A stretch of DNA of 53,276 nt. Origin: a virus. The notes below the pieces were generated by a model, which had not been told where the DNA came from, made no database searches, and was given only the letters and a program-made list of their open reading frames with translations. This document shows positions 2,579 to 44,290 of the stretch, one piece after another. The stretch covers positions 1-53,276 of the IMG/VR virus record IMGVR_UViG_3300041809_003414; one strand, given 5' to 3'. The translations under genes were made by a program, and so were the position numbers. The first letter of the stretch is position 1; every line of letters starts with the position of its first letter.

Positions 2579-5500
2579 TTACACCGCCAGCAACGTTGGC
2601 GTTCCGGCAAGAACGCCTCTCCCGCGAACGAGGGCGCCGATTTGCCCCGGTCCGTAATTCGCGGTGCCCCTTGCGTTGGACGCCATGGTCGGATTGCACT
2701 CGCCGACCGCGTGAAACAAGCCGCCCGCCATGCCGAGCGCTTCAGACTCACCGCCGACCGTTTCAGCATCGTAAAGCGCGATGCTCAAGTATTCGGCGGT
2801 GCTCTCACCCTTGCAGTCTCCGGACGCGACCTTAGGAGAATATACCTGTGCAGCTGCGAGGCTCGCCCCACGGAGGGTGGCGATCAAGTGCAGGAGCGCA
2901 TAGGTGGCGACTGCCACAGCCGATCCGGGCGTATTGGGCATGGTTTTTCCATCGGCGCTGAAGATGCACTGCGTATCGCAGTCCATTTCCGGCGATGCGC
3001 CGTCGGCCTCGCCAGTCGGAGCGGTCCAGAGCGATGTGTCTGATCTAATGCTGCCGTCGCCCTCGGTCGAGCCGGTGGCCACCTTCAGACGCGCGCCCTC
3101 GATGCCGGTGACAGAGGAGGCGCCGGAGGCCGCCCCGGTGTCCGTGAATTCCTGCCCAGCGAGCCCCGCGAGCAGACTCGCGCCCTTGAGCAGGGCCGCG
3201 ACCAGGAACGAGATACTGATTCTCGCCGCCGCATAGCCATGGCCGGTCGCGGCGGCGTACACCCAGGCCGCGACGAAAGCTGAGGCGGTCGAGGAGCCCA
3301 GGAGCGAGCCGGTGGCGTAGACGAGGAGTGCGCCGCTCCCGGTGCTGGTCTTGAGGAAGGCCTCCAGGATCGTGATCACGTCGAGGAAGCTTTCACGATA
3401 GGTGTGGACCGCGCTCAGTGCGTGCAGCAGCGTGATCACATCCGCGAGAGAGGCGAACTGCTCATGCGACGCGCCGAATATTTCGCTGAGAGTGATCGAG
3501 TCCGTCCAGGCCTGCTGCTGCTGATAACTCAAGCTCGAAATGTCGCTAACCGAAAGCGAATCAAGGACTGCCTGCCAGTGGGTTAGGAGTGTGCCGGTCG
3601 AGTCCAGCACCGGCAGGGTATCGATAAGTGCCACCGGTTCGTGCCCGCGACTGGTCGAAAGGGTCTCCGCAAGCAAGACGACATCTGATACCGCGCCGCG
3701 CGCAAGTGCCTTCTGACTCGCATCCGACAGCGTGAAGGTGTCCGAATAAATGCCGGGCACGTAGGTGTGCGAAGTGGTGAAAGATTCGATCAGAGAGAAC
3801 AGATCCTTCGGCAGCTTACCGGGATTCTTGAAGAACACCTCGGCGAAGGTGCTGGTGAATGAATCAGTCAAAGTGCCGGCACCGCGCATACGATGCTCAA
3901 CAAATACGTCGGCAAAAACGGAATGGATCCCGGCCTCAGTCGCCAGCACGCGCGCGGTCTGCTTCGACACCTGTTCTGCCACCGTAAACTGATCCGAGAG
4001 GGTCATCGGAACGCTGAACGGAGTGATTGTGGGCATGACGTAGCAAACCATGGCCGTATAGGTCGCTGTAGGAGAGAAATTGGTGGTGTCCACATGAACA
4101 CCGGGGTTACCGACATTGACGTTGTAATCGAAGATGCCGCCAGACTCTGTGCTTCGAGCGTTAAATGAGGCGTGTCCTCCGTTACCGAACGGAAGCGTTG
4201 CTGTAGTCAACGACGACGCCGTGGAAACGCAGAACAGTTCCAATTCGTTCGAATTCGTCGGCGCTGACGCGGTGACGAACCCGGTCCCTACGGCGGACGA
4301 ATTATAATTCGTGGAGCTTACCGAATCGAACGGGTTTCCAGCAGCGGCGCCGGAAACAATAAAGTACCCAATGAGGTAATTGATGGCGCTTGAGAACGTG
4401 AAAGAAACGCTGGTTCCTGTGGTGCCGGTTGCTTGCCCTGCGTAAAAGAAGACCTGATATCCTCCGCTCGGAAAATAACTCGGACCTGCGTAAAACGTCA
4501 CGTTGGTGCAGCTTATGGAGGCAAAAGAGTGGGCTGAATTAGTGGCCACCATAATGATAAGAGTCTGGCCGGCAGACATCGCGGGAATCGTAAATCCAGC
4601 ACCGCTAGCAGAACCATCGCTGATCGTAAGCGTGGTCAGAACCGTGATCGTCCCCACGGCGGGCGCGTTCAGTGAACTCGTGTACGACTCCACCATGGCA
4701 AAGGCGTCGAGAACCGTGGAGCGGCTGGTCGCCTTCGAAATGCGCTCAGTCAGGCTGTAGGGATCTAAAAATGTCTTGGCGTTGATCGTCTGTGTTGCCA
4801 GGAACGATTCCGTAACGGTGAACGGATCTTTCGGATTCTTGCCGAACGCCCGCAAGATGCCCGAATCCGCCAAAGTGAACGTGTCTGCCACGTTTACCGG
4901 GGGTTGCCCACGATGCTGAACAAAGTTTTCCGTGATGGTCAACTGGTCGGAGTTGGTTCGCGATGTGCCCTTTCCAATGGTCTCTACCAACGAGAACGGG
5001 TCTGAAAGGCTTTTCGTCCAGAGGTTCCCTCCCAAATTGCCTTTGATGATGAAGATGATTCCGAAATAGGCTTGGCCTGAAAGAGCGCCATTGATGTCCT
5101 CAATCCTCGCGCTTAAGCCGGTCTCGTTGGTGTTGACGGGGCACGCGCACCATCCCATATTGGTTTGGGCTGGCGACCACGCGGTGAAGGTCTGCGAATA
5201 GTAAGTACCGAAACCGGTAGCGCTCAAATTACTGGACATGATGGCCGAGGTGTTCCACCAGAAGCATCCCACCAGCGCATCGCCGGCGTTGACGTTGATT
5301 CCGGTGACGACCGTCTGATTGGTGTTTTGGGGAAACGTGCCGGGAAGGTTTCCGCTCCCGGTGTATTGCGCCCGCAGCATGACGGGCTGGTTTGGAATTC
5401 CTTGCCATCTCTGCACATAGCCCGTCAGGTAACACGAGACGTTGTTGGTACACGTCAGGGTAGTGCCCGGAGTGCCGGTGGCAAATCCGATCCACAATTC

Positions 5501-5722
5501 CACCTCAGCGTTATCGGCCGAGAAAACGAAATCCGACACATATGCCCACGTTACGTTCGTTTGGGAGAGCGCTGTAAAATCGCTGCTCGTCGACCAACCG
5601 GTGAGAATGGCGATGAAGACGTCCGAGCTGGTGAGAGTTCCCGCAAGCGAAATCGAAAGGGTGGTCGAGCTTGATGCGTTGGATTGGTCCCCAATATTGC
5701 CGCTTTCGTAAACGACGGCCAT
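2579..5722 (-). CDS. large repeat-containing tail/virion protein
   Basis: The 1047-residue protein has two beta-rich modules (about 1-230 and 360-570) that resemble each other, both Ser/Thr/Gly-rich with alternating hydrophobic strands. Around and after them run many copies of a roughly 20-30 residue repeat with core D-x-F/I-T/S-L-x-E (for example LSDPFSLVETI, DTFTLADS, LDPYSLTERI, SDTFTLSDAS, WTDSITLSEI), up to about residue 790. The C-terminus is Ala/Gly-rich and ends in a different domain. Position between small tail-fibre genes and the lysin suggests an adsorption or fibre-like virion protein. It is not assignable to a named family by eye. Confidence 0.7.
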   Translation of the reverse strand: MAVVYESGNIGDQSNASSSTTLSISLAGTLTSSDVFIAILTGWSTSSDFTALSQTNVTWAYVSDFVFSADNAEVELWIGFATGTPGTTLTCTNNVSCYLTGYVQRWQGIPNQPVMLRAQYTGSGNLPGTFPQNTNQTVVTGINVNAGDALVGCFWWNTSAIMSSNLSATGFGTYYSQTFTAWSPAQTNMGWCACPVNTNETGLSARIEDINGALSGQAYFGIIFIIKGNLGGNLWTKSLSDPFSLVETIGKGTSRTNSDQLTITENFVQHRGQPPVNVADTFTLADSGILRAFGKNPKDPFTVTESFLATQTINAKTFLDPYSLTERISKATSRSTVLDAFAMVESYTSSLNAPAVGTITVLTTLTISDGSASGAGFTIPAMSAGQTLIIMVATNSAHSFASISCTNVTFYAGPSYFPSGGYQVFFYAGQATGTTGTSVSFTFSSAINYLIGYFIVSGAAAGNPFDSVSSTNYNSSAVGTGFVTASAPTNSNELELFCVSTASSLTTATLPFGNGGHASFNARSTESGGIFDYNVNVGNPGVHVDTTNFSPTATYTAMVCYVMPTITPFSVPMTLSDQFTVAEQVSKQTARVLATEAGIHSVFADVFVEHRMRGAGTLTDSFTSTFAEVFFKNPGKLPKDLFSLIESFTTSHTYVPGIYSDTFTLSDASQKALARGAVSDVVLLAETLSTSRGHEPVALIDTLPVLDSTGTLLTHWQAVLDSLSVSDISSLSYQQQQAWTDSITLSEIFGASHEQFASLADVITLLHALSAVHTYRESFLDVITILEAFLKTSTGSGALLVYATGSLLGSSTASAFVAAWVYAAATGHGYAAARISISFLVAALLKGASLLAGLAGQEFTDTGAASGASSVTGIEGARLKVATGSTEGDGSIRSDTSLWTAPTGEADGASPEMDCDTQCIFSADGKTMPNTPGSAVAVATYALLHLIATLRGASLAAAQVYSPKVASGDCKGESTAEYLSIALYDAETVGGESEALGMAGGLFHAVGECNPTMASNARGTANYGPGQIGALVRGRGVLAGTPTLLAV

Positions 5723-8566: not shown

Positions 8567-9408
8567 TGGACCTCCATGTCGAGAACCACGCTGTAGCCGG
8601 TACCGGTGCTGGATGCTGACGGGCCGCTGAGAATGTAGGGCCGCAGCAGGTCACCCGGCTTAAATGAAAGGCCGGGCGCGAAAGTCTGGCTCGCCAGCGT
8701 GCCGTTGATCGTCGGCTCGATTACCGGCTGCCCACCCGCCGGGAAGATTGACGTCCAGGTTGCGACGCCGGGGCGCAGCACCTGGATGTCGAGCGTGACG
8801 TTCGCGAGAGGCGGCTGCTTGACCTGGACATAAATCGAGCTCGGCTGATTCTTGCGGACAACCAGATAATAACCGCCAAAATCGCGCCCTGGTGGCGGCG
8901 CTGAGATCAAGCCGAAGTTCATGGTGGCCCGGTCAAACGAGGGCGGCGTCACACTCGCCAGGGCCAGCACACACTGGAAGCCGTTCGCGAAGCCCGGTCC
9001 CACGCCGGTCGAGAGGATGTCGAGGCGCAGGAGGTTGGTCACCGCAAAGCCGCTGGTGGGCGCGAAGTCGTTCGATGTGGTCGGCCCGGAGGCGGTCATG
9101 CTGATGGGGTTATTCAAAATCGAGTTCCACGTGTTGCCGCCATCCTGGCTGAGCAGGATGTCGAATGTGAAAGAGCCCGCCGCCGGTGGCTGCGCCAGAA
9201 ACGCATATAAGGCCGATGGCGTCGCCGCCTGGGAGATGATGTGGCGCGTGCCCTTGTCGACGCCCGGCAGGATCGGATTGCCGAAGCCCGAGAAGAACGT
9301 GGCCTTGTTCCCGAGCGCGTCGCTCGCGGCGAGCGCGCCGCCCACACCGCCCAGCGAGGTCGCGCCGGGACCGTTGATCTGAATCCAGTCCGATGGTGTC
9401 GGCGTCAT
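8563..9408 (-). CDS. phage structural protein, tail region
   Basis: The start MTPTPSDWIQINGPG (281 residues) overlaps the stop of the giant tail-tip gene by 4 bp, so translation is likely coupled. The sequence is beta-rich throughout, with FTFDILLSQDGGNTWNSIL near residue 90 and a carbohydrate-binding-like feel (YYLVVRKNQPSSIYVQVKQ near 195). It is probably a tail-tip or fibre-associated protein. No named family is recognised. Confidence 0.65.
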   Translation of the reverse strand: MTPTPSDWIQINGPGATSLGGVGGALAASDALGNKATFFSGFGNPILPGVDKGTRHIISQAATPSALYAFLAQPPAAGSFTFDILLSQDGGNTWNSILNNPISMTASGPTTSNDFAPTSGFAVTNLLRLDILSTGVGPGFANGFQCVLALASVTPPSFDRATMNFGLISAPPPGRDFGGYYLVVRKNQPSSIYVQVKQPPLANVTLDIQVLRPGVATWTSIFPAGGQPVIEPTINGTLASQTFAPGLSFKPGDLLRPYILSGPSASSTGTGYSVVLDMEVQ

Positions 9409-12400
9409 TGTGCGGGCGCTTTCAGATAGAGCGTTCCTCGCGCCGGACTCATATCGCTGAGCAGCCAGTATGCGCCGGAGGGGCTGATGACCTTCACGTA
9501 ATTGATATCGGGTGAATTTTTGTGGCCGTAGAAGTTTTGATTGGGCACCTGCCCGGGCTGCTGGAGCGTGTACACGAGGCACCCGGGCATTGAGACGGTC
9601 GCATTCGCGGCGTGCTGGGCCTGCGCGGTGCCCAGTTGCCCGGGCATGACGGTAAGGTTCGGGGTGCCGGTGCCCGCCGTCACCAGGAACGACTCGCTGT
9701 CAATCGTAAGGTAGGTGCCGTTCGGTTCCGTGTAGTTGGAATTCAGTATCATCGCTGTCGCACCCGCCGCGATACCGGCGCTCAGCTGGCTCGTGGTGCC
9801 GGTGACTTGCGAAGTGTCGAACTGCACGGTGCAGTGTTTCGCCAGCTGCGTCGTGCTTTGGGTAACGGTAACCGTCCCGAGCGTGCCGTAGATCCAGTCC
9901 TCGCGGACCGGGGCGCTTCCGTCGTCGGGCGATTCATTGCCGTTCACGTCTACCGTGAAGCCCGCGATCAGCATGGGCTGCAGGATGAAATTCTGGGTCG
10001 GGAGCGAAAGTGTGGTGGGCGTGGCTGGCGAGGCGTTGCCCGCCGCGCTCGAATCGGCTTGATTGGCCCAACTCGGCCCCTCGACGATCCAGACGGTCGT
10101 GATATCCATCAGCAGAGGCGGCTGGAAGGTAAGCTGGGTCCCCGTGTTCGCGGTGATAGTGGAGGGCGGCTGGTTGCGCCCGGTGCCCTGGATAATCCGG
10201 ATCAGATTCCCGACCTCGGCCCCCGGCTTCATGCCACCGTAGCCGTTGGTGATGTTCTGACAGCCGGTATCGGTTACCTGGGTTACTAGTGTTGGGTTCG
10301 CTGTTAAGGAGGTGCCGACGAACCGGATAACTACCGCATCGCCAATGAGCAGGATGCCTGTCGGGTCGCGGTCGACCGTCATGGCGCCGGTAGTCTTATT
10401 AAACGCCGTGATATTGAAGCTCGCGAACGGCGTCTTTCCATTAGGTCGTCCTATCGCGGAGAGGATGCGGCCGGTAGGATCGAAGGTTCCGGCCGGGTCC
10501 ACCATCCAGGCACAGATGACCGTGTTAGCCGACAAGCCGGTCACCCCAATTCCGGCCACGCCGGAGTGCACCAGCAGCTTTGCCTTCACTCGCACCCGGC
10601 TCACGTACGGCGTCGGCATCGCCCAGGTAGATCGCGCCACTGGCCCGGCAAACGAGATGGAAGCCGGGCCGTACGTCGTGCCACCGCCGGCCGGTGTGAG
10701 CGTGCCCGTGATCTGCTCGCAGATCAGATCGTCTTCGACGCCGATGAAAAGCACGAAGCTCGCCAGGCCGGTGACCGCCGGCCACGTGATGTTGTTCAAC
10801 GTGAAGCTGTCGGTACCGAGGATGCCGGTGCCGAGAACCGCGATGTTCGAGGGCACTGATGGCAGGCCGTTGGCGTCGAGCGCGCAGATCGACAGGTAAA
10901 GCGTCGCGCAGGGCGGAACCGATCCGCCCGCCGAGGACTGCGCAACAGGTCCGATGGCCGGAGCGCCCGCGCCGGTGGGGCTGAACTGCGTTACCGGGAG
11001 CTTGCCGGTAATCAGCATCACAGCCTGCTGGCTGCCGTCCGAAAGGGTGTTGTACTCCTGGTCAGAATCGAAGGTCCACTCGCCGGGGAACAGCGCGTCG
11101 TTCACAGCCGCCTGGATCTGGTACGGAGCCCACGCCGGGCCGAACGGGATCGGGTAGAAGATCGGTGGCGGTGGCGCGGGCGCGACGTCGGTTGGCTTCG
11201 GGCCGATATCGAGGTCGTACATCGATTGGGTGACTGTCTGGCCTTCGATCTGGACCGACCAGTCTTTCTTCAGCGTCCACCGCTGGATGCGGAAGCACAT
11301 CGTGATGACCTGGAAACTAAGGCCGGTCCCGCTCGGCGGCGCCGGGTTCGTCGTGATGGTGGTGCCGTCGCTTGCGACGGCCGTAATCATTACCTGCTCG
11401 CCGCCGATAAGGACTTCCTTGTCGATCAGTTCGGTGTCGCCGTTGGCTGTGCCCGCGTATGTCCAAGGGTCCCCGCTCACCCAGGTCGCGGTGGCGTCGG
11501 TCACATTGCACGTGCCGCGTGCGCCGGGGATATCGGGATGCGTCATCGAGACGACCTGCCCGATCTCGTTGTTGAGCCCGAGCAGCGTCGTCTGCCACAC
11601 GGCGTTCCGTGCGTTCCGCCACTCCATCGGCGTGACACCGCCGCACTCCTCGCGCGTGCGGGTGGCTGCGATCCGCAGCCCTTGGCTCAACGTCGAAATG
11701 CCGACCGAGTGCATTTGGCTCGTAAGAGGCGAGCCCGAGCGCCCGTAGTAAGCCGCGTGGCTCTTGTCGGAGTACTCGGCGGTGTTGGCCTGATATTGAT
11801 AGGCCACGTCCGCGTAGGAGATCACGAGATGCTCGAAGGCTGCGGTGATCGGCGTGAGCCGGAGAGACTGGAACAGGATGTTCGCGATGGTGTACGCGTC
11901 AACCGCGCTCGCGTTGATGCGGATACCGAGCTTGAGCTGGCCGAACTCCCACGCGTAGAAGCCGAGGCAGCAGTTCAAGACCTCCGTTAGCCAATCGCGG
12001 AAAGGCTTTTGGCTTGAAATCACGCCTTGGAATTGGAACTGCGTCTCGTTGCCGGTGCCGAGGATCGCTGGCACTTGAGTGGCGGCGATATCGGCAGCGC
12101 CCGTTCCCTGGCTATTCGTGAGCGATGACAGCACGAACATACTCAACTGCTCGGTGGGATTGTCGAGCGTGGGCATGCTGTTGCCCGGCAACGGGCCGTT
12201 CTGGATGGGGTCGAGGTAGTAAGCGAACCAATCGTATTTGCCCTTGCCCGTAAAGGTCATGCTGCCGACCGTCAACGTGGCACCGGGCCTCATCCGGTCC
12301 TCGACGGACGCGACCAGCGCCTTCTCGGCGTTACCGGTCGGATTATTGCCGGCGATCACCACGCACGCCTGCACGTACGCGTTCCAAACTGTGTTGAAGT

Positions 12401-14528
12401 TTGCGATGAACGTCACCTGGTTGGCGGTCGTCTGATAAATCGGCGCGAGCGCCTGCCAGGCGGAAAGGCTCTGCTGCAGCAGTGTTTCTGCCTGATTCGC
12501 TGCGTTGCTCATCGGGACGCTGAATTCGTTCCCGACGAACGCGCTGCCGATCAAGGCGACAAGTCCTGCGACCAGCATCATCCCGTCCATCAATGCCCAA
12601 CCGGAGATAAGCAGCCCAAGCGAAACCCACGTGCCCACCGTGGAACCTACGAAGCTGAAGAAACTACTCGGCGGAAGGGTGACCACGATGGACTGCGTGG
12701 TGATCGGTGGCGCGATGCCGTGCGAGAGGCCGGTGGCGCGCAGCAGCATGTTGACGCAAATCCAGAACGGGTTGATCAGGCCCATGACCGACGAGCGGTC
12801 GCCCTTCGCGTCCCAGATGTATCCAGTGAGCCCGTAATCGATGGGCACAGTCATGCTGTGCTGATCCGGCGTCGACGGCTGGATGGTGCTCGACTTGGTG
12901 ATACGCAACTCGCACAGCGCCACTCCCGCCGCGTAGTTGTTCGGCTCCCAAACCTGGGGAGTACCCTGTCCGAGCGAGAAGTAATCCGTCGCCGGGTTCA
13001 CTGGATCGTTGCCGAGGACCTGCCGCAAGCCCATGCCGGGCTGGTTCTTCGTGATATTGAGGTTTCCGTTGACCTTGAAGCCCTGCCACGTGTATCCGTC
13101 GACCATCGGCGAAACCACATAGCGGTAGCCATCGGCGTTCTGCACCACGCACGACTGCGTATAGCCGCCAATCGGCCCGGCTCCCACGATGCCCAGCGAA
13201 TCGGCATACGTCGATTCGTCGCGATATGACACCATCAGAGCGTTCGCCATGAACGCATAAAGCGGGTTCCCGCCGCTGTTGCACCAGATTTCCGGCAGGG
13301 CCATGCCCCAGATCGTTTCCGAGATGATCGAGGTCGCGGTGACCACGTTGCGCCCGAACCCGATAAAGCCGGTAGAGTCGTCCAGGATCGTGACGCCCTG
13401 CGGATCGGCCTGCTGCCCGCCGAAGTAAGCCATCATGCCGTGGACCTGGCAGCCGTTCGCCGATTCGAGGTAATAGTCGCAACTGGTCGGATCGCCGCCC
13501 GCCGCCGTGACTGCCGCCGCGCTCGCGCCCCGCGTCGCCCAAGGGCACCAGACGCCGTCGTTGTAGTTCTTCCAGCACATCCGGCTCGCCTGCCGCTCCG
13601 GGTACTGGTTCATGATCTGGAAGAACCCGTCCGAGCACGACAGGCTGAAGGTCGGTGTTCCATCGCTAACAAAGCTCTGGATAACGCCCTTCCAGATTTG
13701 GATGATGGTGCCCGAGTTGACGTGGTAAGCGCAGAAATCGATGGCGGCGTATTTGAGGTCGGTATCGTTCCCGAGCGCGGTCATCACGCGGTCCGCGTTG
13801 CCGAATTCGAAGCGCACGTTGTCGGAGGACCCCTTGATGTCCTGCGAGATCAGGGTGTCGGAGCCCCGCTCGCCGATCCCGATCAACCGGGGAATGTAAA
13901 GTTGGGAGCTTGCGTGCCAGCCAAGTGCGGCGGCGCTCGCTCCACCGGCTGCGTCCGTGAGCGTCAACCGTCGGTCGGACAACCAGATGTCCGGCACGGC
14001 AGTTTCACGCACGCGGATGTGCACGAGCGGGATGATTTCCTGAACTTCCGAAAGCAGCGCCGCGGAGAGCGCACTCGAGGGAAAGCGCAGACAGGTGGAA
14101 TTGACCGGATAGGTTGGCGCCTCGGTCGGATCAACGACTTCGATGAAGTTCAATCCGACTTGGCAGGCGTTGCGGAGGTACTGAAAGGAGATGGGCGTCT
14201 GCTCAAACGTCACCAGAACTGCGCTAGTAGTCCCATCGGGGTTGGGGACAGTGTAGGTAAACGCCTCCCAGGGCCCTTGCATCGACTCCCAGAAATCGCG
14301 GAGTGCGTGCAACTCGGTCCAGCCGAGGTTGGGGCGCGCGAATTGAAACTTGCGGGGTCCGATGCCGGCGTAATATCGCTGCTCCTGCTTGGCGTCCACG
14401 CTGCCGAAGCGATGGACGATCACCTGGCGATCGACGGAGAATCCGAGGGGGTACTGCGTGGTGAGTGGAAAAGTCTGGCCGGAGTTGATCACCGTGGAGA
14501 CGGGAATACGGCCGATGGTGTCGGACAT
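9405..14528 (-). CDS. giant tail-tip / host-attachment protein
   Basis: At 1707 residues this is the largest gene here. The N-terminal 150 residues contain a distal-tail-like stretch (YYAGIGPRKFQFARPNLGWTELHALRDFW style). At about 150-400 there is a BR0599/DUF2163-like part with conserved cysteines (MCWKNYNDGVWCPW, CDYYLESANGCQVHG), as in proteins replacing lambda gpL. A hydrophobic segment lies at about 600-660. The later part (about 800-1150) fits the phage tail hub, followed by beta repeats to the C-terminus with fibronectin-like or fibre domains. It seems to join tail-tip functions that are often separate genes. It probably makes the tail tip and contacts the cell. Confidence 0.8.
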   Translation of the reverse strand: MSDTIGRIPVSTVINSGQTFPLTTQYPLGFSVDRQVIVHRFGSVDAKQEQRYYAGIGPRKFQFARPNLGWTELHALRDFWESMQGPWEAFTYTVPNPDGTTSAVLVTFEQTPISFQYLRNACQVGLNFIEVVDPTEAPTYPVNSTCLRFPSSALSAALLSEVQEIIPLVHIRVRETAVPDIWLSDRRLTLTDAAGGASAAALGWHASSQLYIPRLIGIGERGSDTLISQDIKGSSDNVRFEFGNADRVMTALGNDTDLKYAAIDFCAYHVNSGTIIQIWKGVIQSFVSDGTPTFSLSCSDGFFQIMNQYPERQASRMCWKNYNDGVWCPWATRGASAAAVTAAGGDPTSCDYYLESANGCQVHGMMAYFGGQQADPQGVTILDDSTGFIGFGRNVVTATSIISETIWGMALPEIWCNSGGNPLYAFMANALMVSYRDESTYADSLGIVGAGPIGGYTQSCVVQNADGYRYVVSPMVDGYTWQGFKVNGNLNITKNQPGMGLRQVLGNDPVNPATDYFSLGQGTPQVWEPNNYAAGVALCELRITKSSTIQPSTPDQHSMTVPIDYGLTGYIWDAKGDRSSVMGLINPFWICVNMLLRATGLSHGIAPPITTQSIVVTLPPSSFFSFVGSTVGTWVSLGLLISGWALMDGMMLVAGLVALIGSAFVGNEFSVPMSNAANQAETLLQQSLSAWQALAPIYQTTANQVTFIANFNTVWNAYVQACVVIAGNNPTGNAEKALVASVEDRMRPGATLTVGSMTFTGKGKYDWFAYYLDPIQNGPLPGNSMPTLDNPTEQLSMFVLSSLTNSQGTGAADIAATQVPAILGTGNETQFQFQGVISSQKPFRDWLTEVLNCCLGFYAWEFGQLKLGIRINASAVDAYTIANILFQSLRLTPITAAFEHLVISYADVAYQYQANTAEYSDKSHAAYYGRSGSPLTSQMHSVGISTLSQGLRIAATRTREECGGVTPMEWRNARNAVWQTTLLGLNNEIGQVVSMTHPDIPGARGTCNVTDATATWVSGDPWTYAGTANGDTELIDKEVLIGGEQVMITAVASDGTTITTNPAPPSGTGLSFQVITMCFRIQRWTLKKDWSVQIEGQTVTQSMYDLDIGPKPTDVAPAPPPPIFYPIPFGPAWAPYQIQAAVNDALFPGEWTFDSDQEYNTLSDGSQQAVMLITGKLPVTQFSPTGAGAPAIGPVAQSSAGGSVPPCATLYLSICALDANGLPSVPSNIAVLGTGILGTDSFTLNNITWPAVTGLASFVLFIGVEDDLICEQITGTLTPAGGGTTYGPASISFAGPVARSTWAMPTPYVSRVRVKAKLLVHSGVAGIGVTGLSANTVICAWMVDPAGTFDPTGRILSAIGRPNGKTPFASFNITAFNKTTGAMTVDRDPTGILLIGDAVVIRFVGTSLTANPTLVTQVTDTGCQNITNGYGGMKPGAEVGNLIRIIQGTGRNQPPSTITANTGTQLTFQPPLLMDITTVWIVEGPSWANQADSSAAGNASPATPTTLSLPTQNFILQPMLIAGFTVDVNGNESPDDGSAPVREDWIYGTLGTVTVTQSTTQLAKHCTVQFDTSQVTGTTSQLSAGIAAGATAMILNSNYTEPNGTYLTIDSESFLVTAGTGTPNLTVMPGQLGTAQAQHAANATVSMPGCLVYTLQQPGQVPNQNFYGHKNSPDINYVKVISPSGAYWLLSDMSPARGTLYLKAPAQ

Positions 14529-31174: not shown

Positions 31175-32413
31175 TTAAGCCACTTCGTCAAACGTCCGGC
31201 CGGACCCCTCGTGCCGCGCCTGTTTCCCGGTCCATTGCTGCCAGCGACGGATCACAACGTCGCAGTACTTCGGGTCCAACTCAATCAGTCGCGCCTGGCG
31301 GCCGGCCTTTTCGCAGGCGATAGCGGTTGTGCCACTGCCGGCAAAGGGATCGAGGATCGTGTCGCGCGTTTTGCTGCTGTTGCGGATCGCACGCTCGACC
31401 AGCTCGACCGGTTTCATAGTCGGATGTTCCTGGTTGCTCGCAGGACGTTTGATGAACCAGATGTCGCCCTGGTCGCGGGCCCCACACCAGAAGTGGTCCA
31501 CACCGTCGCGCCAGCCGTACAGAATCGGTTCGTACTGACGCTGATAATCAGATCGACCCAGCGTGAAGTGATGCTTGGCCCAGATCACAAACGTCGACCA
31601 ATGCCCGCCGGCATCCGTGAATGCCTGGTGGAGCGTGTGCAGTTCCGACGAGGACATGCAGATGTAGATGGCGCCTTTGCAGACCGTCAACATGTTTGTC
31701 GACGCGTCGCGCAGGAAGTCGTAGAACTGCTCGCCCAGTTTGTCGTTCTGGATCTTGAGTTTCTTTGCCGTCTTCCCTTCGTAGGCGACGCCATACGGTG
31801 GATCGCTGAAGACCATATCGGCCAACCCGCCAGCCATGACCTTCTCCACGTCTGCGAGCACCGTAGCATCGCCGCAAAGCAGGCGGTGCTCGCCCATCAC
31901 CCAAACGTCGCCGGTAACCGTGACGACAGTTTCCTGGGCCTCCGGTGCCGCTTCGTCCTCGCTCAGGCCCGAAGTGCTCTCTTCTGGATCTACCAGGATC
32001 TCGTCAAGTTCCTCGGGGCTGAATCCCACCAGTTCCAGGTCGTACTCGACGGCCTTCAGCGACTCCAGTTCGACGCGCAACATCTCGTCGTCCCACCCGG
32101 CATTGGTCGCAATCTTATTGTCGGCCAGCACCAGCGCGCGCCGATCGTCCTCGCTGAGATGGTCGAGGACGATGACTGGAACCTCGGCAAGACCGAGCTT
32201 ACGCGCAGCCGCCAGGCGGGCGTGGCCTGCGATGATGATGTTGTCGCTGCCGACGAGGATCGGATTGGTCCAGCCAAACTGGCGCATGCTCGCGGCGACC
32301 TGGGCTACCTGCTCGTCGGTATGGGTCCGTGCGTTCCGGATGTACGGCAGCAGTCGGTCCACCGGCCAGATTTGGATGTGGAGATTGCGAAGGCGCTCAA
32401 TGATGTCCAACAT
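31175..32413 (-). CDS. ParB-like domain fused to DNA methyltransferase
   Basis: The start MLDIIERLRNLHIQIWPVD gives 412 residues; the stop of the upstream gene abuts it. Residues about 15-125 form a ParB/Srx-like N-terminal domain (LLPYIRNARTHTDEQV, IIIAGHARLAAARKL, VIVLDHLSEDDRRALVLADNKI). A linker rich in Glu follows (about 130-165). Residues about 170-400 form an adenine/cytosine N-methyltransferase with DPPYG (motif IV), DPFAGSGTT (AdoMet-binding) and HPTMKPVEL. Such fusions are common in phages, where they may mark phage DNA against host restriction. Confidence 0.9.
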   Translation of the reverse strand: MLDIIERLRNLHIQIWPVDRLLPYIRNARTHTDEQVAQVAASMRQFGWTNPILVGSDNIIIAGHARLAAARKLGLAEVPVIVLDHLSEDDRRALVLADNKIATNAGWDDEMLRVELESLKAVEYDLELVGFSPEELDEILVDPEESTSGLSEDEAAPEAQETVVTVTGDVWVMGEHRLLCGDATVLADVEKVMAGGLADMVFSDPPYGVAYEGKTAKKLKIQNDKLGEQFYDFLRDASTNMLTVCKGAIYICMSSSELHTLHQAFTDAGGHWSTFVIWAKHHFTLGRSDYQRQYEPILYGWRDGVDHFWCGARDQGDIWFIKRPASNQEHPTMKPVELVERAIRNSSKTRDTILDPFAGSGTTAIACEKAGRQARLIELDPKYCDVVIRRWQQWTGKQARHEGSGRTFDEVA

Positions 32414-32414
32414 C

Positions 32415-33947
32415 TCAGAGGTTTCCCTTTTGTCGTGTCCGGAGATCCGGTTCGTTACCAGCGTCAGCGGGCAGATCGCGCGCCTCCGCAACGTCACTGA
32501 ACGTCTGACCGGACTCCGCCCGCACCGGAGTCTCGCCAGCCAGATTGACTATGCGCCGCAGGATGACATCGCAGTAGGCCGGCGACAACTCGCAGCCATA
32601 CGCGATGCGATCCAGCAGGTGCGCCGCCGCCATCGTCGTCCCGGAACCCATGAACGGGTCATAGACGATGTCCCCCGGATCGCTGAACGCAAACAGGAAG
32701 AACTCCACCAGCGCCCGCGGAAACGGTGCGCTGTGGGATCCCTGGCTCGACTCGGACTTCACCTCGATGACGTTCGACGGTCGCGCCACGCCGGTGTAGC
32801 GGCCTTCCGTGTTCGGCGCCGCGTTCAGATCGCGGTGCGATCTCTGCCAGGCGCTCTGGTTCCTGCCGGGATCGGCGGCGGCGCCGCGCGGCCCCGTGCC
32901 CAGTAGCCCGCTGCCCGATGTGGACTTTGGGTTGTTGGGCGAATATTCGAAACAGTCCTCCGACTCATGCCCGACGCGCTTGGGCCGGAATTTAATTTCC
33001 TGCTGGCGGCAAAAATGGAAGACAGGTTCCCAGGCGTTTTTGAAACGGTTGTTCCAACCGCCAGGCACGCCATTGTCCGTTTTGCGCCAGCAGAACTCGT
33101 CCACAAAACGCCAACCCCACAGGCGGCGGTGGGCGATCACTAAATCTTTCACATAAAGGCTGCGCTCGCCGTTGTCGGCATGCTCCTTGATGTTCAGGAA
33201 GTAGGAGGCATCGTCTGCAAGGATCGCGGCGATGTTGGCGGCCACATCGCGATACCAGTCTGCATACTGGTCCGGCGGGATCGGGCGGAAGCCGCTCGAA
33301 GAGTCGTACTCCCGCTGCGAGGCGTACGGCGGTGATGTGATCGCGACGTTCGCGTGCGCTTCCTCGAATAGTTTGCGAATAACACTCGCGTCACGGCAAT
33401 CGCCGCATATCAGACGGTGCTTGCCGATCACCCAGACATCGCCTGGCCGGGTGACAGCCTGGACGGGAGTCTCCGGAACCTCCTCCTCTGCCTCGGGAGC
33501 AGCTTCCGGTTCCTCGGGCACAGCCAGCAGCGCATCGAGCTCGTCGGTAGAGAAACCCACGAGCGCCAGGTCGAGGCCATCCGTTTGGAGGTCCTTCAAC
33601 TCGTCGGCAAGGAGAGTATCGTCCCATCCGGCGTTGAGCGCGATCTTGTTGTCGGCGATGATGTAGGCGCGCCGCTGGGTTTCGCTGAGGTGATCCAGCA
33701 CAACCACCGGCACCTCGCCAAGGCCCAGCTTCCGGGCAGCCAGGAGGCGACCATGGCCGGCTATTACGCCAGCATCGGATGCCACCAGAATTGGGGAGTT
33801 GAAGCCGAATTCCTTGATGGACGCTGCGATTTGAGCCACCTGCTCTTCGGAATGGGTCCGAGCGTTCCTCTGGTAGGGGAGCAGTCGCTCCACAGGCCAA
33901 ATCTCGATCCGTTGAGCCATCGCAGGAGTGAATGTCTTCGTGCTCAT
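32415..33947 (-). CDS. ParB-like domain fused to DNA methyltransferase, second copy
   Basis: This 510-residue protein is a paralogue of the next gene in the N-terminal part: the two share IWPV-RLLPY-RNARTH, IAGH-RL-AARKLGL-EVPV-VLDHLSE and NKIA-NAGWDD. The methyltransferase differs: SPPYAS instead of DPPYG, a long insertion (about 290-420) and DPFMGSGTT for the cofactor loop. SPPY usually means an N4-cytosine or beta-type enzyme, so the two probably have different targets. Duplication followed by domain replacement is likely. Confidence 0.9.
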   Translation of the reverse strand: MSTKTFTPAMAQRIEIWPVERLLPYQRNARTHSEEQVAQIAASIKEFGFNSPILVASDAGVIAGHGRLLAARKLGLGEVPVVVLDHLSETQRRAYIIADNKIALNAGWDDTLLADELKDLQTDGLDLALVGFSTDELDALLAVPEEPEAAPEAEEEVPETPVQAVTRPGDVWVIGKHRLICGDCRDASVIRKLFEEAHANVAITSPPYASQREYDSSSGFRPIPPDQYADWYRDVAANIAAILADDASYFLNIKEHADNGERSLYVKDLVIAHRRLWGWRFVDEFCWRKTDNGVPGGWNNRFKNAWEPVFHFCRQQEIKFRPKRVGHESEDCFEYSPNNPKSTSGSGLLGTGPRGAAADPGRNQSAWQRSHRDLNAAPNTEGRYTGVARPSNVIEVKSESSQGSHSAPFPRALVEFFLFAFSDPGDIVYDPFMGSGTTMAAAHLLDRIAYGCELSPAYCDVILRRIVNLAGETPVRAESGQTFSDVAEARDLPADAGNEPDLRTRQKGNL

Positions 33948-38221: not shown

Positions 38222-38935
38222 TCATGCTCTGTGGCGCTCCCACGGCTGTTCGAAATTGGGGTTATAGAAGTGCGAGCGGAAGCCCTGCGGCGGTGGCCCA
38301 ATGATCTCGATGGAATCAGCAGCGACGGTGCCGATGCGATCGTCCGCATCGAGAAAGCAAACCAGACCGTAATCGCCGCCAAATGGAAAGCGTAGACGGC
38401 CGCGCGCCTGGTACAGAGCTTCGTGCGTCCATCCAAGTGCCAATGCTCGCTCACGGATCGCGTTGACGCATTCTAGGGCTTGGTCTGAGACTGGCTGAGT
38501 GAAGAAACCTTTGTCATTGCCTGAGGGAGTTGCAACGGGCCATGGCCGAAGTTCTGTCCACGGTTCGGCAACGGGCGGCGCATACCTCCGGGCATCGAGA
38601 GTGCGAATTGCTTCGAATAACCGTGGTTCGCCGAAGTTGGCCGTGGCCCAATCCTGCATTGCATTGAACCTCGCCCGAAGATCGTCAAATTGGCTGGCGG
38701 AGAGTTTACCGGCGGCAACGGCGCTCTTTGCGATCGTCATTTTCGAGCGCAACCAGGCGTAATACTCCGGGTCAAGGCGCCGATAAGCAGTGTCGTCGAT
38801 CTGGAGATCGCGCGCGAAAAAAGCCGGCTCGTTCGTAATCCATTGCTCCAGAGACGTGGAGACGTACATCGCGGCAGAGGGCGTGCCGCGGCGGACTACC
38901 TTTTCCTCATTCCCGTTTTCGAGTAACGCGGTCAT
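38222..38935 (-). CDS. hypothetical protein
   Basis: The 237-residue protein starts MTALLENGNEEKVVRRG. Several blocks look well folded: YVSTSLEQWITNEPAFFARDL near 25, YYAWLRSKMTIAKSAVAAGKL near 58, and LGWTHEALYQARGRLRFPFG near 170 followed by YGLVCFLDADDRIGTVAADSIEII, where the last part is a compact beta unit. No catalytic motif is evident. It lies between the repeat region and the terminase group, on the minus strand. I recall similar hypothetical proteins only in acidobacterial genomes. Confidence 0.65.
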   Translation of the reverse strand: MTALLENGNEEKVVRRGTPSAAMYVSTSLEQWITNEPAFFARDLQIDDTAYRRLDPEYYAWLRSKMTIAKSAVAAGKLSASQFDDLRARFNAMQDWATANFGEPRLFEAIRTLDARRYAPPVAEPWTELRPWPVATPSGNDKGFFTQPVSDQALECVNAIRERALALGWTHEALYQARGRLRFPFGGDYGLVCFLDADDRIGTVAADSIEIIGPPPQGFRSHFYNPNFEQPWERHRA

Positions 38936-39269
38936 TCAAGTGCCTCGCGTCCCAGTCTGGCCGTGGCGACTGAAAGAGGACTGGGACGCCGTAATCCAAT
39001 GACAGGAACAAAGTTACGAGACGGCGTCCACGCGTCCCAGTCTGTCCCAGTGTTTTGCGCAAACTCTCCATAGGAGTTTCTCAATACATTCCCTCCTATG
39101 TTCCCGGCATATATATTTTTTCCTCTTACGTGTGCGCGCATATGAATATACTGGGACGCTGGGACACGGCCATGAAAACACACGGGTTGAGACTGGGACG
39201 CGGACTGGGACGCAGACTGGGACGCGGCCCGAGACGTGGACGCCAACGTCGGAACCCCAGCGCCACGAG
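38936..39269. repeat. iteron-like repeats with AT-rich core, candidate origin
   Basis: The 11-mer GACTGGGACGC occurs exactly at 38979, 39191, 39203 and 39215 (plus) and 38947 and 39032 (minus). The last three plus copies repeat every 12 bp. Partial copies are at 39043, 39151 and 39159. Between them (about 39053-39150) is an AT-rich stretch with ATATATATTTTTT and a hairpin AAACTC/GAGTTT. The region directly follows the primase-helicase gene and precedes an unrelated gene. This is the arrangement of a phage replication origin with initiator-binding repeats. Confidence 0.6.
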
Positions 39270-42095
39270 TCACTCCGCCCTCCGATAAAGCCAGTCACGT
39301 GAGCCCCTCCGACCGATCCGGAACCGTGCCCATCCCAGGGCTCGCAGACATCGTGCCACGCGGATCTTATCCATCTGGGTCCACTGATCCTTCTTCTTCT
39401 CCAAGCACAAGGAAAGTACGTCTGCAATGGAGACCGAGTCCCGTCCTTCGAGCCAAGGGATGATCAATTCATCCCAGGGGTCATTCTCGTAACGATCCGC
39501 CTGTTCCTCGGCGGCATCCCGTGTAAGCTCCACGGAATCGAGCCACCAAGGTTTTCCGTCGAAGTACAACTGCGCCGCTTCGGCCCAGAGCTGGTCGCGC
39601 GCCTCGGCCAAGGCATCGACGTCGATCACAAGCGCTTTACACTCCACAGGCCAGAATCGCCGCGCGCCAGTTTCGTCGCGGAGATACGTGCCATGGTTGA
39701 CGCTGCCGGCGAACACGCACTGGCGCGGAGAGTCTATGGGCCGTTTACCGTATGGTGGCCGGAAGCGGTCCGATCCCCGGCTCATGAACGCCTTGATACG
39801 CCCGACGTCGGAACGAGCCATGGAATCAAGCTCGGCGATTTCGATAACCCACACGCCGCGGGTCTGCAGTGCGGCATCCTTCGATCCAAGGTCGGCGATC
39901 TCGTCCGTGAACCACGGCTGAGCCAGTACGCGAAGCGCGGTCGATTTCCGAATGCCCTGCTCGCCTTCGAGAATCAGGCAGCAATCGGCTTTGCATCCGG
40001 GCATGAATACCCGGGCGACGGCGGAGATCATCCACCGCGAACCCACAGCTGCCGCATAGGGAGACGGATCAACACCGAGGAAATCAGCCAGCCAGGATTG
40101 CAGCCGTGGCGTGTGGTCCCACTGTAGATCCTGGAGGTATTTCCGCACGGGATGAAAGGAACGATCACGGGCGACCGCTTCAACGGCCTGGCCGGTTGTC
40201 TCGACCGACACGAAGATGCCCTGGCGATGCAGCCAGTCGGTGGCCAGGATGTCTTCTTGCTGACTCCATTCCCCGGGGACCTCGCGTTCTGGCTTCATCC
40301 ACGGAGTCGGGCGTTCGAAAACCGTGCAATGGGCGAACTCGTTATGCGCAAGAACACCGGTCCACTCCGGTGCGTAACGGAACGCGGCCATTGCGTTGGC
40401 CAGCACGGGTCTAATCGTATTGTTCAGGTTCAGCAGCAGGGCGTCACGCCAATTGGGAGGCTGGTCGTTTGTAGCGGCAAACGCGAATGTGGATTGTTCC
40501 CCCGACCCGCGTTTGCCAGCGGAGCGGCCCTTGCCACTCGATCGAGAATCGATGCGAACCACCTTCATCTGTTCCCGCAATGCCGCGAGCGGAAGCCGAT
40601 CCTTGCCGCACTGATTTTGAATCAAGCGCAGATGGCGCGGTTGGTCGATCGGATCGAGCCGCCGGACTTCAGCCAGAATCGGCTCGATTAACCGCGCGAG
40701 GTCCGTTTCCGGCGTCGCGGTAGACAGCCTCGAGATCGCCAGTTCCAGCGGTGTCTGCGCGCCGGAAAGGATGGCTTCGAAATCGGCCGCAGTTCTGCCC
40801 GATGCGAAGTATTCGTTTACGTCGATTTTGGCATCGGCTAGCAACGACTCCGCGCGGCGAATTTCCTCCTCGCCGCGGCCTTCCAGTTGCTTGGCGAGGT
40901 CTTTTGGCGTGATACCGGGATGCGCGTCGAATCGATCACGCAGCTCCTGGCGTGCTTTCTGCTGCTTTTCACCGAGCGGCAGAACCGCTACGCGCGTCAG
41001 AATCCCGTGTGCGCCCAGGACGCCGGCGGTGCGGAGCGCGCCATTCAATCCGGCCTCGGACACCTCGTTGTCCTGGCAGATGTGGACCGTCTTCACACCG
41101 GCCAACTTCGGCAGGAGGCGGTCCCAATCGGCTTCGCGAATCCGTACCGTCACCGGTGACAGGACCGGAAAGCCGCGTTCCATGAGCGAAATGCAGTCCG
41201 TCACGCCTTCGGTGATAATGGCGCGCTCGGGGCGGGTTAGAAGGACATCTTCGTTGTAGAGAACGTCATTCCGGATGCATGGAGCGACGTGTTCATTGTT
41301 GCGCCCGTTTCGGACGGCGAGTTTCTTGTATTTCGATTTCTCCCAGGCCTGATCGGGTGTCCAAGGCGTCTGGCGTCCGATCATGAAAACAACGTGGCCG
41401 CGGCTCCAGTACGGGAAGACGATTCGGCCCTCGAAAAATGGGATCAAGCCATCCTGCGCTGTGGGCCGGAACGCGGACGTGGCCGTTAATTCCGCCTTCG
41501 TAAACGCATTTGAGCCGTCCATCAACGTTTGGAAGACGCTGGGATTGTCGTTCTGGGCGAAGCCGATCTTCAGCCGAGCAGCCATCTCATCGCCGATGCC
41601 GTATTTTTCACGGAACCAAGTGAGGACGTCGGGGTTGGCGAGCAGTCGCTGATGGTAGAATTCCGCAATCTCCGTCAGTGCCTCATGCACGCGAAGACTG
41701 AGCGCATGGGCTTCTTCGGCCCCCTGCGCATCTGGTGACAGACCTGATAGCGGTGGCAAACCGGCGCGTCCGGCCAAGTAGTCCCGCGCCTGGCGATGCG
41801 ATTCCGGCATCCGCCCGGACTGGCCGCGAGTCACCTGTCCCGACTGAACGAATTCCACCAATTGCAGCACATCGCCGCCCACACCGCAGCCGAAGCAATA
41901 CCAGCCTTGCTTGTCGAGCATAATGTGCAGCGAGCGATGCGACTGGCTCCGGTGATTGGGACAGTCGCACTGCAGTGTCCGCTGGGATTCCTGAGTGATT
42001 CTGCCGGCGAACACGTCGCGCGCGACCTCACCGATATCCACATCCGTGACTTGGCGGTAATAACTTTGGACGTCTGTGGAAGACTGAGCTGTCAT
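39270..42095 (-). CDS. primase-helicase (DnaG-like plus VirE-like)
   Basis: Start MTAQSSTDVQ overlaps the upstream stop by 4 bp; 941 residues. Residues about 43-70 carry a CHC2-type zinc finger (CDCPNH, CFGCG). A TOPRIM-type primase region with AIITEGVTDC lies about 280-400. The C-terminal third (about 620-941) is a VirE-like P-loop ATPase (LILEGEQGIRKSTALRV near 710) with GVWVIEIAEL and VFAGSVNHGTYLRDETGARRFWPVEC. Such fusions start replication, as in P4 alpha. It is transcribed after the RecD-like gene and ends beside a repeat array that may be its origin. Confidence 0.88.
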   Translation of the reverse strand: MTAQSSTDVQSYYRQVTDVDIGEVARDVFAGRITQESQRTLQCDCPNHRSQSHRSLHIMLDKQGWYCFGCGVGGDVLQLVEFVQSGQVTRGQSGRMPESHRQARDYLAGRAGLPPLSGLSPDAQGAEEAHALSLRVHEALTEIAEFYHQRLLANPDVLTWFREKYGIGDEMAARLKIGFAQNDNPSVFQTLMDGSNAFTKAELTATSAFRPTAQDGLIPFFEGRIVFPYWSRGHVVFMIGRQTPWTPDQAWEKSKYKKLAVRNGRNNEHVAPCIRNDVLYNEDVLLTRPERAIITEGVTDCISLMERGFPVLSPVTVRIREADWDRLLPKLAGVKTVHICQDNEVSEAGLNGALRTAGVLGAHGILTRVAVLPLGEKQQKARQELRDRFDAHPGITPKDLAKQLEGRGEEEIRRAESLLADAKIDVNEYFASGRTAADFEAILSGAQTPLELAISRLSTATPETDLARLIEPILAEVRRLDPIDQPRHLRLIQNQCGKDRLPLAALREQMKVVRIDSRSSGKGRSAGKRGSGEQSTFAFAATNDQPPNWRDALLLNLNNTIRPVLANAMAAFRYAPEWTGVLAHNEFAHCTVFERPTPWMKPEREVPGEWSQQEDILATDWLHRQGIFVSVETTGQAVEAVARDRSFHPVRKYLQDLQWDHTPRLQSWLADFLGVDPSPYAAAVGSRWMISAVARVFMPGCKADCCLILEGEQGIRKSTALRVLAQPWFTDEIADLGSKDAALQTRGVWVIEIAELDSMARSDVGRIKAFMSRGSDRFRPPYGKRPIDSPRQCVFAGSVNHGTYLRDETGARRFWPVECKALVIDVDALAEARDQLWAEAAQLYFDGKPWWLDSVELTRDAAEEQADRYENDPWDELIIPWLEGRDSVSIADVLSLCLEKKKDQWTQMDKIRVARCLRALGWARFRIGRRGSRDWLYRRAE

Positions 42096-44290
42096 ACGCT
42101 GGCCCCCTGTGGCAGCAGAAAGGAAAGGAATGTGTTTCTGCGGTCGACCTGGCGCTTCTTCACGCAGTTTTCGATACCCCAGGTATCGCCAACGAGGATC
42201 ACCGACCCCTTTGCACGCGTCACCGCCGTATAAAGAAGGTTGCGGTGGTGCATGAACGAATGCGACTTGTGGACCACCACCACAGCGCATGGGAACTCGG
42301 ATCCCTGCATTTTGTGAATGGACGTGGCGTACGCGAGTTGAACATTGTTCAGGTCCGGCGAGTCGCCTGCAATCTCGACGAGATTGCCTTCGAAGTTGAT
42401 CGTCATGGCGCCGTCACTCCCGACAGCAGCAACAATGCCGACCGCACCGTTCATAACCTGGCGGTCGTAATCATTCTTCGTCTGGATGACCTTGTCGTTG
42501 GCATAGAACGTAGGCCGGCGGCCCGGTTCCACGTCGGGGATGTCGACTCCGAAGAGCTTCAGCTGCAGCAGCCGTTGCAGCGCAATGTTCAACTCGACGG
42601 TGCCAAGTGGACCCTTGTGGGTGGGTGTAAGCAATTGGACATCGCGCAGGAGATCATAACCGAGACGCTCCTGCAGGACTTCCTCAAACAGCAACAGGAG
42701 CATCCCGGATACGTCGTCCCGGTCGCTGAATTTATCGATGACATACCAGGGCCGTCGACCGCCGGCCTGGGTTTCGGATGTGGGCCTAACCTCGCCGGCC
42801 AGAATCGCGGTGGAGTTTTCTTTCAGTTCGCCGGCCTGCCGAATTACACGAGTCAGCACTGTAGTGGGGATGGCGCACGACTGGACAAGATCGCGGAGGA
42901 GGTTGCCCGGACCGACCGGCGGTAGCTGGTTGTGATCACCCACCAGAACAACTGCAGTCCGGCTGGAATCCACGGCATGCAAAAGGCGCCACGCGAGCGC
43001 CACATCCACCATGGAAACTTCGTCGACGACGAGGATGTCGGCTTCAATCGGATTGCCGGCACCCCGCAAATACGTCTGGCCGTTGAACCCGAGGAGCCGG
43101 TGGATAGTGCAAGCCGGATGCCCAACCACCTCCTCCATGCGTTTCGCGGCCTTGCCGGTGGGCGCGGCCAGAACAACGCTCAGTTCCAGCCGGTCGGCAA
43201 TGCTGGTGATAGTAGAAATCGCATACGTCTTACCGCTTCCCGCTCCGCCGGCGATGAGAGAGACCGCACTTGTGAGCGCGTTTGCCACGGCGCGCCGCTG
43301 TTCCGGATTCAATTCCGCGCCCTCAGCATTGAGTAGCGGGTCGACGTCGCCGATGACTTTGGCATGAGGGTTCTTCTCGTGCGAGCCCGCGAATCGCTCC
43401 GCCAGTTCCTGCTCCATTCGATGGATCTCCGGATCGGCGACAACGAGCCGTTCAAAGGGAGCCGAGATCAGGAGGCCTTCGCCAATGAGCGATTCGAGAT
43501 GCCCTTCGATGATGTCGCGACTGTCCAGCGAGTCCATTACCAGCAGAGTGTTCGCCCGATCCAACAGGTCCTCGTACTCGACCCAACAATCGCCGTCGTC
43601 GAGGGCGTCCGCGACGCAATACTGAATCCCGGCACGAATCCGCGAAGGCAGCTCCTTCGGGGTGCCCATCTTGCGGGCGATTTTGTCGACACGCTTGAAG
43701 CCGTAACCCGAAATCTCACGCATGAGAAGGTAGGGGTCGCGCTCAAGCATCGGCACAACCTGGCTGCCGAAGCGCTCGACAAGGGTGGTCACCTGGTGAT
43801 GGGTCAACCCGAAACGCGAGAGATAAGCCATCGCGGCGTTGAAATCCCCATTCGCGATCCACGTACGTTGCAGCCCGAGGATAGTTTCGAGCGGCGCTTT
43901 CGCCACGGTCGCCACTGCCTCCGGTTGAGCGCGGATCGCAGCATCAAATCCCGCGCCGAAGTGATCGGCAATCAAGCGCGCTTTGGCCGGCCCGATGCCC
44001 TTTACGTCGGGGTTATTACCCAGAAAGTTGGCGAGGCCATCGGCGTCCATCTCCAGGTCATACCCCAGGAATTCCACGGAGAATTGCCGCCCGTACTTCG
44101 GATGTCGGGCCCAGCAGCCATCCAGACGAACGGAATCATTCGGCCTGGCGAAGACTTTCCCGGCGAAGGTCACCAGGCTGCCGTCTGGAGTGCGGAGGCG
44201 CCCGGCGGTGAACGCCGGGCCCGAGTAGAAAACCGTCTCGACGATGCCGCGGATCGAGGAGCGGACCTCCGCGTCTCTCGTTTTCGTCAT
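42092..44290 (-). CDS. RecD-like DNA helicase
   Basis: The 732-residue protein starts with ATG that overlaps the stop of the nuclease gene (ATGA). Domains: N-terminal OB-like region with helix-hairpin-helix (about 90-130), then superfamily 1 helicase motifs: GGAGSGKT (Walker A, 348-355), ILVVDEVSMVD (Walker B, near 425), VVLVGDHNQLPPVGPG, TRVIRQ, and QLAYATSIHKMQGSEF near 660. This matches RecD2-type 5'-3' helicases. It likely unwinds DNA in phage recombination-dependent replication. Confidence 0.9.
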   Translation of the reverse strand: MTKTRDAEVRSSIRGIVETVFYSGPAFTAGRLRTPDGSLVTFAGKVFARPNDSVRLDGCWARHPKYGRQFSVEFLGYDLEMDADGLANFLGNNPDVKGIGPAKARLIADHFGAGFDAAIRAQPEAVATVAKAPLETILGLQRTWIANGDFNAAMAYLSRFGLTHHQVTTLVERFGSQVVPMLERDPYLLMREISGYGFKRVDKIARKMGTPKELPSRIRAGIQYCVADALDDGDCWVEYEDLLDRANTLLVMDSLDSRDIIEGHLESLIGEGLLISAPFERLVVADPEIHRMEQELAERFAGSHEKNPHAKVIGDVDPLLNAEGAELNPEQRRAVANALTSAVSLIAGGAGSGKTYAISTITSIADRLELSVVLAAPTGKAAKRMEEVVGHPACTIHRLLGFNGQTYLRGAGNPIEADILVVDEVSMVDVALAWRLLHAVDSSRTAVVLVGDHNQLPPVGPGNLLRDLVQSCAIPTTVLTRVIRQAGELKENSTAILAGEVRPTSETQAGGRRPWYVIDKFSDRDDVSGMLLLLFEEVLQERLGYDLLRDVQLLTPTHKGPLGTVELNIALQRLLQLKLFGVDIPDVEPGRRPTFYANDKVIQTKNDYDRQVMNGAVGIVAAVGSDGAMTINFEGNLVEIAGDSPDLNNVQLAYATSIHKMQGSEFPCAVVVVHKSHSFMHHRNLLYTAVTRAKGSVILVGDTWGIENCVKKRQVDRRNTFLSFLLPQGASV

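Follow-up and report, generated by a model that had tools for sequence, protein, structure and literature searches.

Origins located beside the gene of their own initiator have been described for several mobile elements. The C-terminal domain of SaPI Rep reads an iteron origin directly downstream of its own gene; that of SCCmec Cch2 likewise binds its putative origin in vitro (PMC7581432). In PICI origins two sets of iterons flank AT-rich DNA, and rep-ori drives plasmid replication; this organisation was described as occurring in no other known bacterial replicon (PMC6092414). For PLEs, an initiator DNA-binding domain that varies in step with the origin and is swapped has been described, attack by an origin-directed nuclease being a plausible pressure (PMC8263062), and in lambda the iterons are located beside an AT-rich element (PMC3349717). 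The DNA investigated here, an IMG/VR contig of 53 kb from a soil or groundwater bacterial virus (53,276 bases; hereafter the window), contains a repeat array at 38947-39225. It is very probable that a temperate phage starts its replication at this array and that the adjacent gene P encodes the initiator, whose C-terminal winged helix would bind the iterons, after which helicase rings would be loaded, the spacer would melt and the fused primase would prime. The window encodes a TerL gpA match (1.4e-90), a major head/protease protein and a large serine integrase, and because of this terminase, head protein and integrase it was regarded as a temperate phage or prophage and not as a satellite. Two very large proteins of 1707 and 1047 aa, encoded at 9405-14528 and 2579-5722, showed no PHROG match.

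P (39270-42290, minus strand) is a primase-helicase of 1006 aa comprising a DnaG-type zinc ribbon and primase core, a VapE-like helicase and a C-terminal winged helix. Pfam matches were obtained for CHC2 (5.5e-7), DNAG_N (1.3e-6) and VapE (PF05272, 1.8e-79), and the helicase part, residues 610-927, matched SaPI PriRep1 by sequence homology (PDB 7pds_A, E 1.2e-57). An AF2 model of residues 590-1006 had a poor, low-confidence helicase core; residues ~934-1006 were modelled as a winged helix, with block pLDDT mostly 73-84 and 59 in a loop. Residues 991-997, which map onto the repeat word (see below), sit at the predicted wing and are encoded at 39300-39320 (minus strand). A fold search with the C-terminal domain returned mostly winged-helix domains, many of them DNA-binding, as well as PriRep1. 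No structure of P4 alpha was found in the sequence search of solved structures or among the fold-search matches listed.

The array is placed between the stop codon of P and the start of gene D (38222-38935, minus strand), its first site lying about 45 bp from the P stop codon, and thus directly behind the primase-helicase gene, as the sequence-only reading had noticed. The six exact copies of the 11-mer GACTGGGACGC which that reading had counted in about 280 bp were confirmed within 279 bp, all inside 38947-39225. Two were located on the minus strand (38947-38957 and 39032-39042) and one on the plus strand (38979-38989), while the three tandem copies reported every 12 bp were found on the plus strand near the P stop codon (39191-39201, 39203-39213 and 39215-39225). 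By our own arithmetic, chance would yield about 0.03 exact copies of any one 11-mer. The rest of the 53,276-base record contained no exact copy, and a control with the pattern read backwards gave none; a spread of the 11-mer over the genome, which had been named as an argument against an origin, was not observed. The partial copies were also recovered, one with a single mismatch (TACTGGGACGC, 39149-39159, plus strand) and two shorter ones (ACTGGGAC, read on the minus strand at 39044-39051, and GCTGGGAC, 39158-39165, plus strand). Although the exact 11-mers are real, the working unit is rather an 8-9 bp core, (A)CTGGGAC(GC), which yields nine sites in the array. Steps between the copies were unequal (8, 10, 12, 34 and 106 bp). 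Copies did occur in both orientations as claimed, yet they were not scattered but followed an ordered layout. On the low-coordinate side, the iteron at 39032-39042 and the core at 39044-39051 form the outer and inner members of an inward-facing pair with a 10 bp step; on the high-coordinate side, the one-mismatch iteron at 39149-39159 is the inner member of the second pair, with the core at 39158-39165 8 bp from it. The AT-rich block that had been noticed amid the repeats is the spacer between the two facing pairs (39052-39149; 59% AT, compared with about 40% in the surrounding DNA), the proposed DNA-unwinding element. GC skew showed no extremum at the array at ~39 kb and was uninformative.

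A search of the viral contigs for the tandem 23-mer yielded the near-identical contigs L009 and L075 and two unrelated arrays. In the latter (L074:500-660 and L076:3200-3460) tandem GACTGGGACGC apparently lies within low-complexity coding repeats and is unrelated to the origin of the window.

Relatives of P were investigated in viral contigs (67) and at 74 loci in bacterial genomes, mostly of Acidobacteria (Bryobacterales), Desulfobacterota, Myxococcota and others. Behind the shared primase part three helicase types could be distinguished: VapE in the group of the window, and two other AAA types with the Walker motifs GSGKGLL and GSGKTTASK (the second half of L044 is 7-16% identical to that of the window). 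A short C-terminal domain ends all three types, and the origin layout is common to all three. Nearly every relative that retained the primase together with sufficient downstream DNA carried an array at the same place, which supports the interpretation of the repeats as iterons of an origin. Among the 108 arrays measured, nearly all were directly behind the primase-helicase gene or one cargo insert away, and the layout consisted of two tandem pairs facing each other across AT-rich DNA. The inner distance between the pairs was 112±9 bp (range 93-136, n=108); the pair step was 9 bp in 73 left and 67 right pairs and 8 bp in 25 left and 16 right pairs, and an inverted single site usually followed 43-92 bp beyond the pairs. 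In 107 of the 108 the centre of the array was richer in A+T than the locus (53% versus 40%). No clear array was found in L106, L126 and L142. In the distant Acanthopleuribacter/Holophagae loci L140 and L143, a one-orientation tandem row of ACCTTAAC every 11-12 bp was observed instead, about 570-620 bp past the primase stop.

Conservation of the repeats in relatives with the same primase-helicase, proposed earlier as a check, applied to the array and its layout but not to the exact word, which was mostly replaced and was rare even among near relatives. Words differed from clade to clade (ACTGGGAC, ACTGGAAC, CGTGGACC, CGTGCACC, GGTCCCCA, GATCCCGA, CTTTCTAC, CTTTCGGC, CCTTCGCA, CCACCGCA, AGTCCGGC and more), and single relatives carried ACTGGAACAC (L008), ACTGGAACCA (L021) or ACGTGGACCT (L014). 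About 40 distinct words were in use, an approximate number since some of the 42 counted 8-mers are shifted readings or artefacts (e.g. in L015). In 30 of 45 arrays of the GSGKTTASK type a short G[AG]GGT-N-C[TC]C element was also observed after the left pair (e.g. L044:9793-9830), compared with about 0.3% expected by shuffling; it might be a mini-hairpin, and the loci are related.

Arrays were likewise sought in 16 annotated phages with a VapE-like gene. Nine of these, Pseudomonas U5 and LPPA36, Marinobacter PS3, Paenibacillus ApiWellbeing, Staphylococcus 3A, Enterococcus phiFL4A, Corynebacterium StAB, Yersinia YeP6 and Evtepia NatCom_11697, showed 6-10 copies of a 7-mer of a different word in both orientations behind VapE, the shuffle maximum being 3-4. 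In StAB another window of its locus reached 6, and in U5 and LPPA36 one small gene was present between VapE and the array. Streptococcus Javan405 was borderline with four copies, and a clear array behind VapE was not seen in about six of the 16 (Bacteroides, Parabacteroides, Vibrio CKB-S1, Xanthomonas, Rhodobacter and a Streptococcus satellite). In the literature collection searched, no paper combined VapE, phage, origin of replication and helicase, and none dealt with iterons and a replication origin together with virulence-associated protein E.

The repeat word and the tail of the primase-helicase were found to change together, so that the sequence shows lock and key side by side. In the VapE group, word similarity correlated most strongly with residues 951-1000 of P (partial correlation 0.74; 0 of 300 permutations). 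Of 904 columns, residue 991 ranked first in adjusted mutual information with word class, and residues 1005, 997, 995 and 993 were also among the top six. Within the window subfamily (25 members) the residues at 991/993 corresponded one-to-one to the word class, i.e. R/G to GGGACGC, K/G to GGGACAC, N/G to GGAACAC, N/R to GGAACCA, K/R to TGGACC and Y/R to TG[CA]ACC. On the tree of the enzyme body nine changes of word class and nine changes of the 991/993 pair were counted. The window and L082 have GACTGGGACGC and an R-[IV]-G wing in common, although the body of L082 is sister to that of a phage with N-A-G and GGAACAC (support 100/99); the combination of GGAACCA with NAR was likewise split over the body tree. 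Phylogenetically independent pairs for this map numbered two to three on supported branches, all of them concordant and too few for significance in a sign test. The C-terminal stretch of P that tracked the word comprised 60-150 residues. Close pairs were used for the remaining types because the per-block correlation over all non-VapE types is confounded by deep clades. In GSGKTTASK-type pairs with bodies 95-99% identical, the C-termini had a mean identity of 95% when the word was the same (n=122) and of 44% when it differed (n=32), these pairs not being independent as many of the sequences are related. In L121 (CTTTCTAC) and L118 (CTTTCGGC) the C-terminal domain differs mainly in the wing (QKRYGTK versus QNHRGTK). 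On the basis of this co-variation and of the structural model we propose that the C-terminal domain of P recognises the iterons.

Repeated operator arrays exist in other phages, and the array lies upstream of gene D, so that a phage regulator might bind the repeats to regulate the gene cluster behind them, the array then playing no part in replication. D encodes a protein of 237 aa of unassigned function with no Pfam or PHROG match; its AF2 model has a confident fold (pLDDT 83), with which a search of the PDB gave no significant match, and the great majority of relatives have a homologue of D as the next gene after the array. The protein that tracks the word is, however, the primase-helicase, in its predicted DNA-binding tail, and D does not: its partial correlation with the word was only 0.07 in the VapE group, and this value together with the pair comparisons led to its rejection as the reader of the word. 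The constant inverted arrangement of pair, spacer and pair likewise argues against a pure operator, which we consider very unlikely, although autoregulation may be a second function of the array. A packaging site, with the repeats serving as binding sites of the terminase small subunit (cosB/pac), was suggested by a terminase small-subunit gene, which lies on the same strand at a distance of about 1.4 kb from the array. Across the 16 loci with a detectable terminase, however, the distance from the array varied from 1.4 to ~7 kb, and about 50 other arrays had no detectable terminase in the 4-11 kb of downstream sequence available, whereas a primase was nearby in nearly all. These variable distances led us to reject the terminase-site reading, which is most improbable also because the word follows the primase-helicase C-terminus.

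Two further explanations are almost certainly incorrect. The repeats could be the by-product of a repetitive peptide (ASQSASQS), as an ORF of 113 aa (38932-39273) is open across the array and overlaps both neighbours by 4 bases. In some phages of the GSGKGLL type (L028:6792-7192 and L033-L036) the P reading frame even continues through the entire array, indicating that the origin may be inside coding sequence there. The copies are present in both orientations and in several frames, though, the 113-aa ORF has no PHROG match, and the layout of the DNA rather than the peptide is conserved among relatives; the ORF was accordingly rejected as a gene. The array could also serve a plasmid-like prophage in partition or incompatibility, as iterons can take part in copy control and two adjacent genes at 31175-33947 each combine a ParB-like domain with a DNA methyltransferase in one fusion. 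This conflicts with the large serine integrase of the window, the location of relatives in bacterial chromosomes, the distance of 5-8 kb to the ParB-like genes and the co-variation of the word with the primase-helicase.

Among related loci a single cassette is exchanged, which comprises the C-terminus, optional cargo genes, the array and the beginning of the gene that follows. The DNA of L121 and L116 is 92-99% identical over the first ~2550 nt of P and 39% identical at the end of P; the arrays are without recognisable similarity and the first 200 nt of D differ, after which identity returns to 92-100%. The first ~65 codons of D are part of the exchanged cassette. In some Desulfobacterota-type and distant members, genes are inserted between P and the array. 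Defence-like genes in this slot (L046:9629-11562, L062:9576-11518, L104:11380-12291, L116:11857-13395, L121:11739-13250 and L152:12178-13473) included RloA/RloB (AbiL-like), AbiEii, Fic proteins, a PLD restriction-like nuclease and an ABC-type ATPase. The arrays of L119 and L116 are 92-98% identical and their cargo is different. Two such prophages with different words were found in Desulfosarcina alkanivorans PL12 (L102/L136) and Desulfobulbus rhabdoformis (L118/L119), which is compatible with selection for non-interference but does not prove it.

The sequence-only reading had compared the locus to the origin of P4. P4 alpha is a primase-helicase with repeated sites and with a C-terminal DNA-binding domain such as is predicted for P, but ori of P4 lies apart from crr, and alpha is of another primase type. 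Lambda differs in that its iterons are inside gene O and do not flank the AT-rich DNA but occupy one side of it, and O is not a helicase. The idea of an iteron origin was upheld, while the closest model is the PICI/SaPI origin rather than P4. Common to both are a VapE/D5-like helicase homologous to PriRep1 (7pds), an origin immediately 3' of the initiator gene (also in relatives, unless cargo intervenes), and two iteron sets flanking AT-rich DNA; a C-terminal domain as origin reader is predicted for the window from co-variation and the winged-helix model. The primase of the window, in contrast, is of the DnaG/Toprim type (zinc ribbon, DNAG_N core) and that of PICIs and SaPIs of the AEP type, and the window is a full 53 kb phage with capsid and terminase, whereas PICIs are small satellites without capsid and large terminase genes. 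The fixed geometry of two pairs 112 bp apart, the ~40 words, the cassette exchange with its cargo slot and the occurrence of the same layout behind two further helicase types also set the window family apart. Because primase type and element type differ, the system was not classed as a PICI, although the best reading is that it works like a PICI origin. SCCmec Cch2/Cch resemble it as self-loading helicases with a C-terminal domain that binds iterons just downstream (PMC7581432), for which the window counterpart is predicted, and in the use of two helicase types by similar elements; they differ in having three short AAGTG iterons and a separate primase-polymerase on another mobile element. PLE RepA and its ori, faced with the phage nuclease Odn, share a DNA-binding domain which covaries with the origin and moves as a module (PMC8263062), but the RepA_N domain is N-terminal, the iterons are semi-palindromic and ~30 bp long, and PLEs are satellites of Vibrio phage ICP1.

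What was observed is that the layout is conserved, that word and C-terminus co-vary to the level of two residues in the wing, that C-terminus and array are exchanged jointly and that the helicase is homologous to PriRep1; binding, ring loading, melting and replication are inferred. The winged helix of P would bind each facing pair, and the two pairs would place two helicase rings head to head, one at each end of the AT-rich spacer. After melting of this spacer, the rings would move outward while unwinding, and the primase fused to the helicase would prime both forks. With differing words, co-resident or competing phages would be unable to fire the origins of one another. We tentatively suggest that this widespread phage family may swap its replication identity as a cassette of winged-helix tail, defence-gene slot and origin with the matching word, that a short amino-acid-to-base code in the wing may set the word, and that selection may be for independence from co-resident phages or for escape from origin-targeting nucleases.

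A layout considered unique to PICIs (PMC6092414) is thus seen behind three helicase types in true phages, among them phages of Acidobacteria and Desulfobacterota; arrays are also present behind VapE in the nine sampled known phages. Two facing word pairs ~112 bp apart, right behind a primase-helicase gene, provide a sequence rule for origins in uncharacterised phages, and the ~40 words represent a natural library of candidate initiator-origin pairs for protein-DNA specificity and replicon incompatibility.
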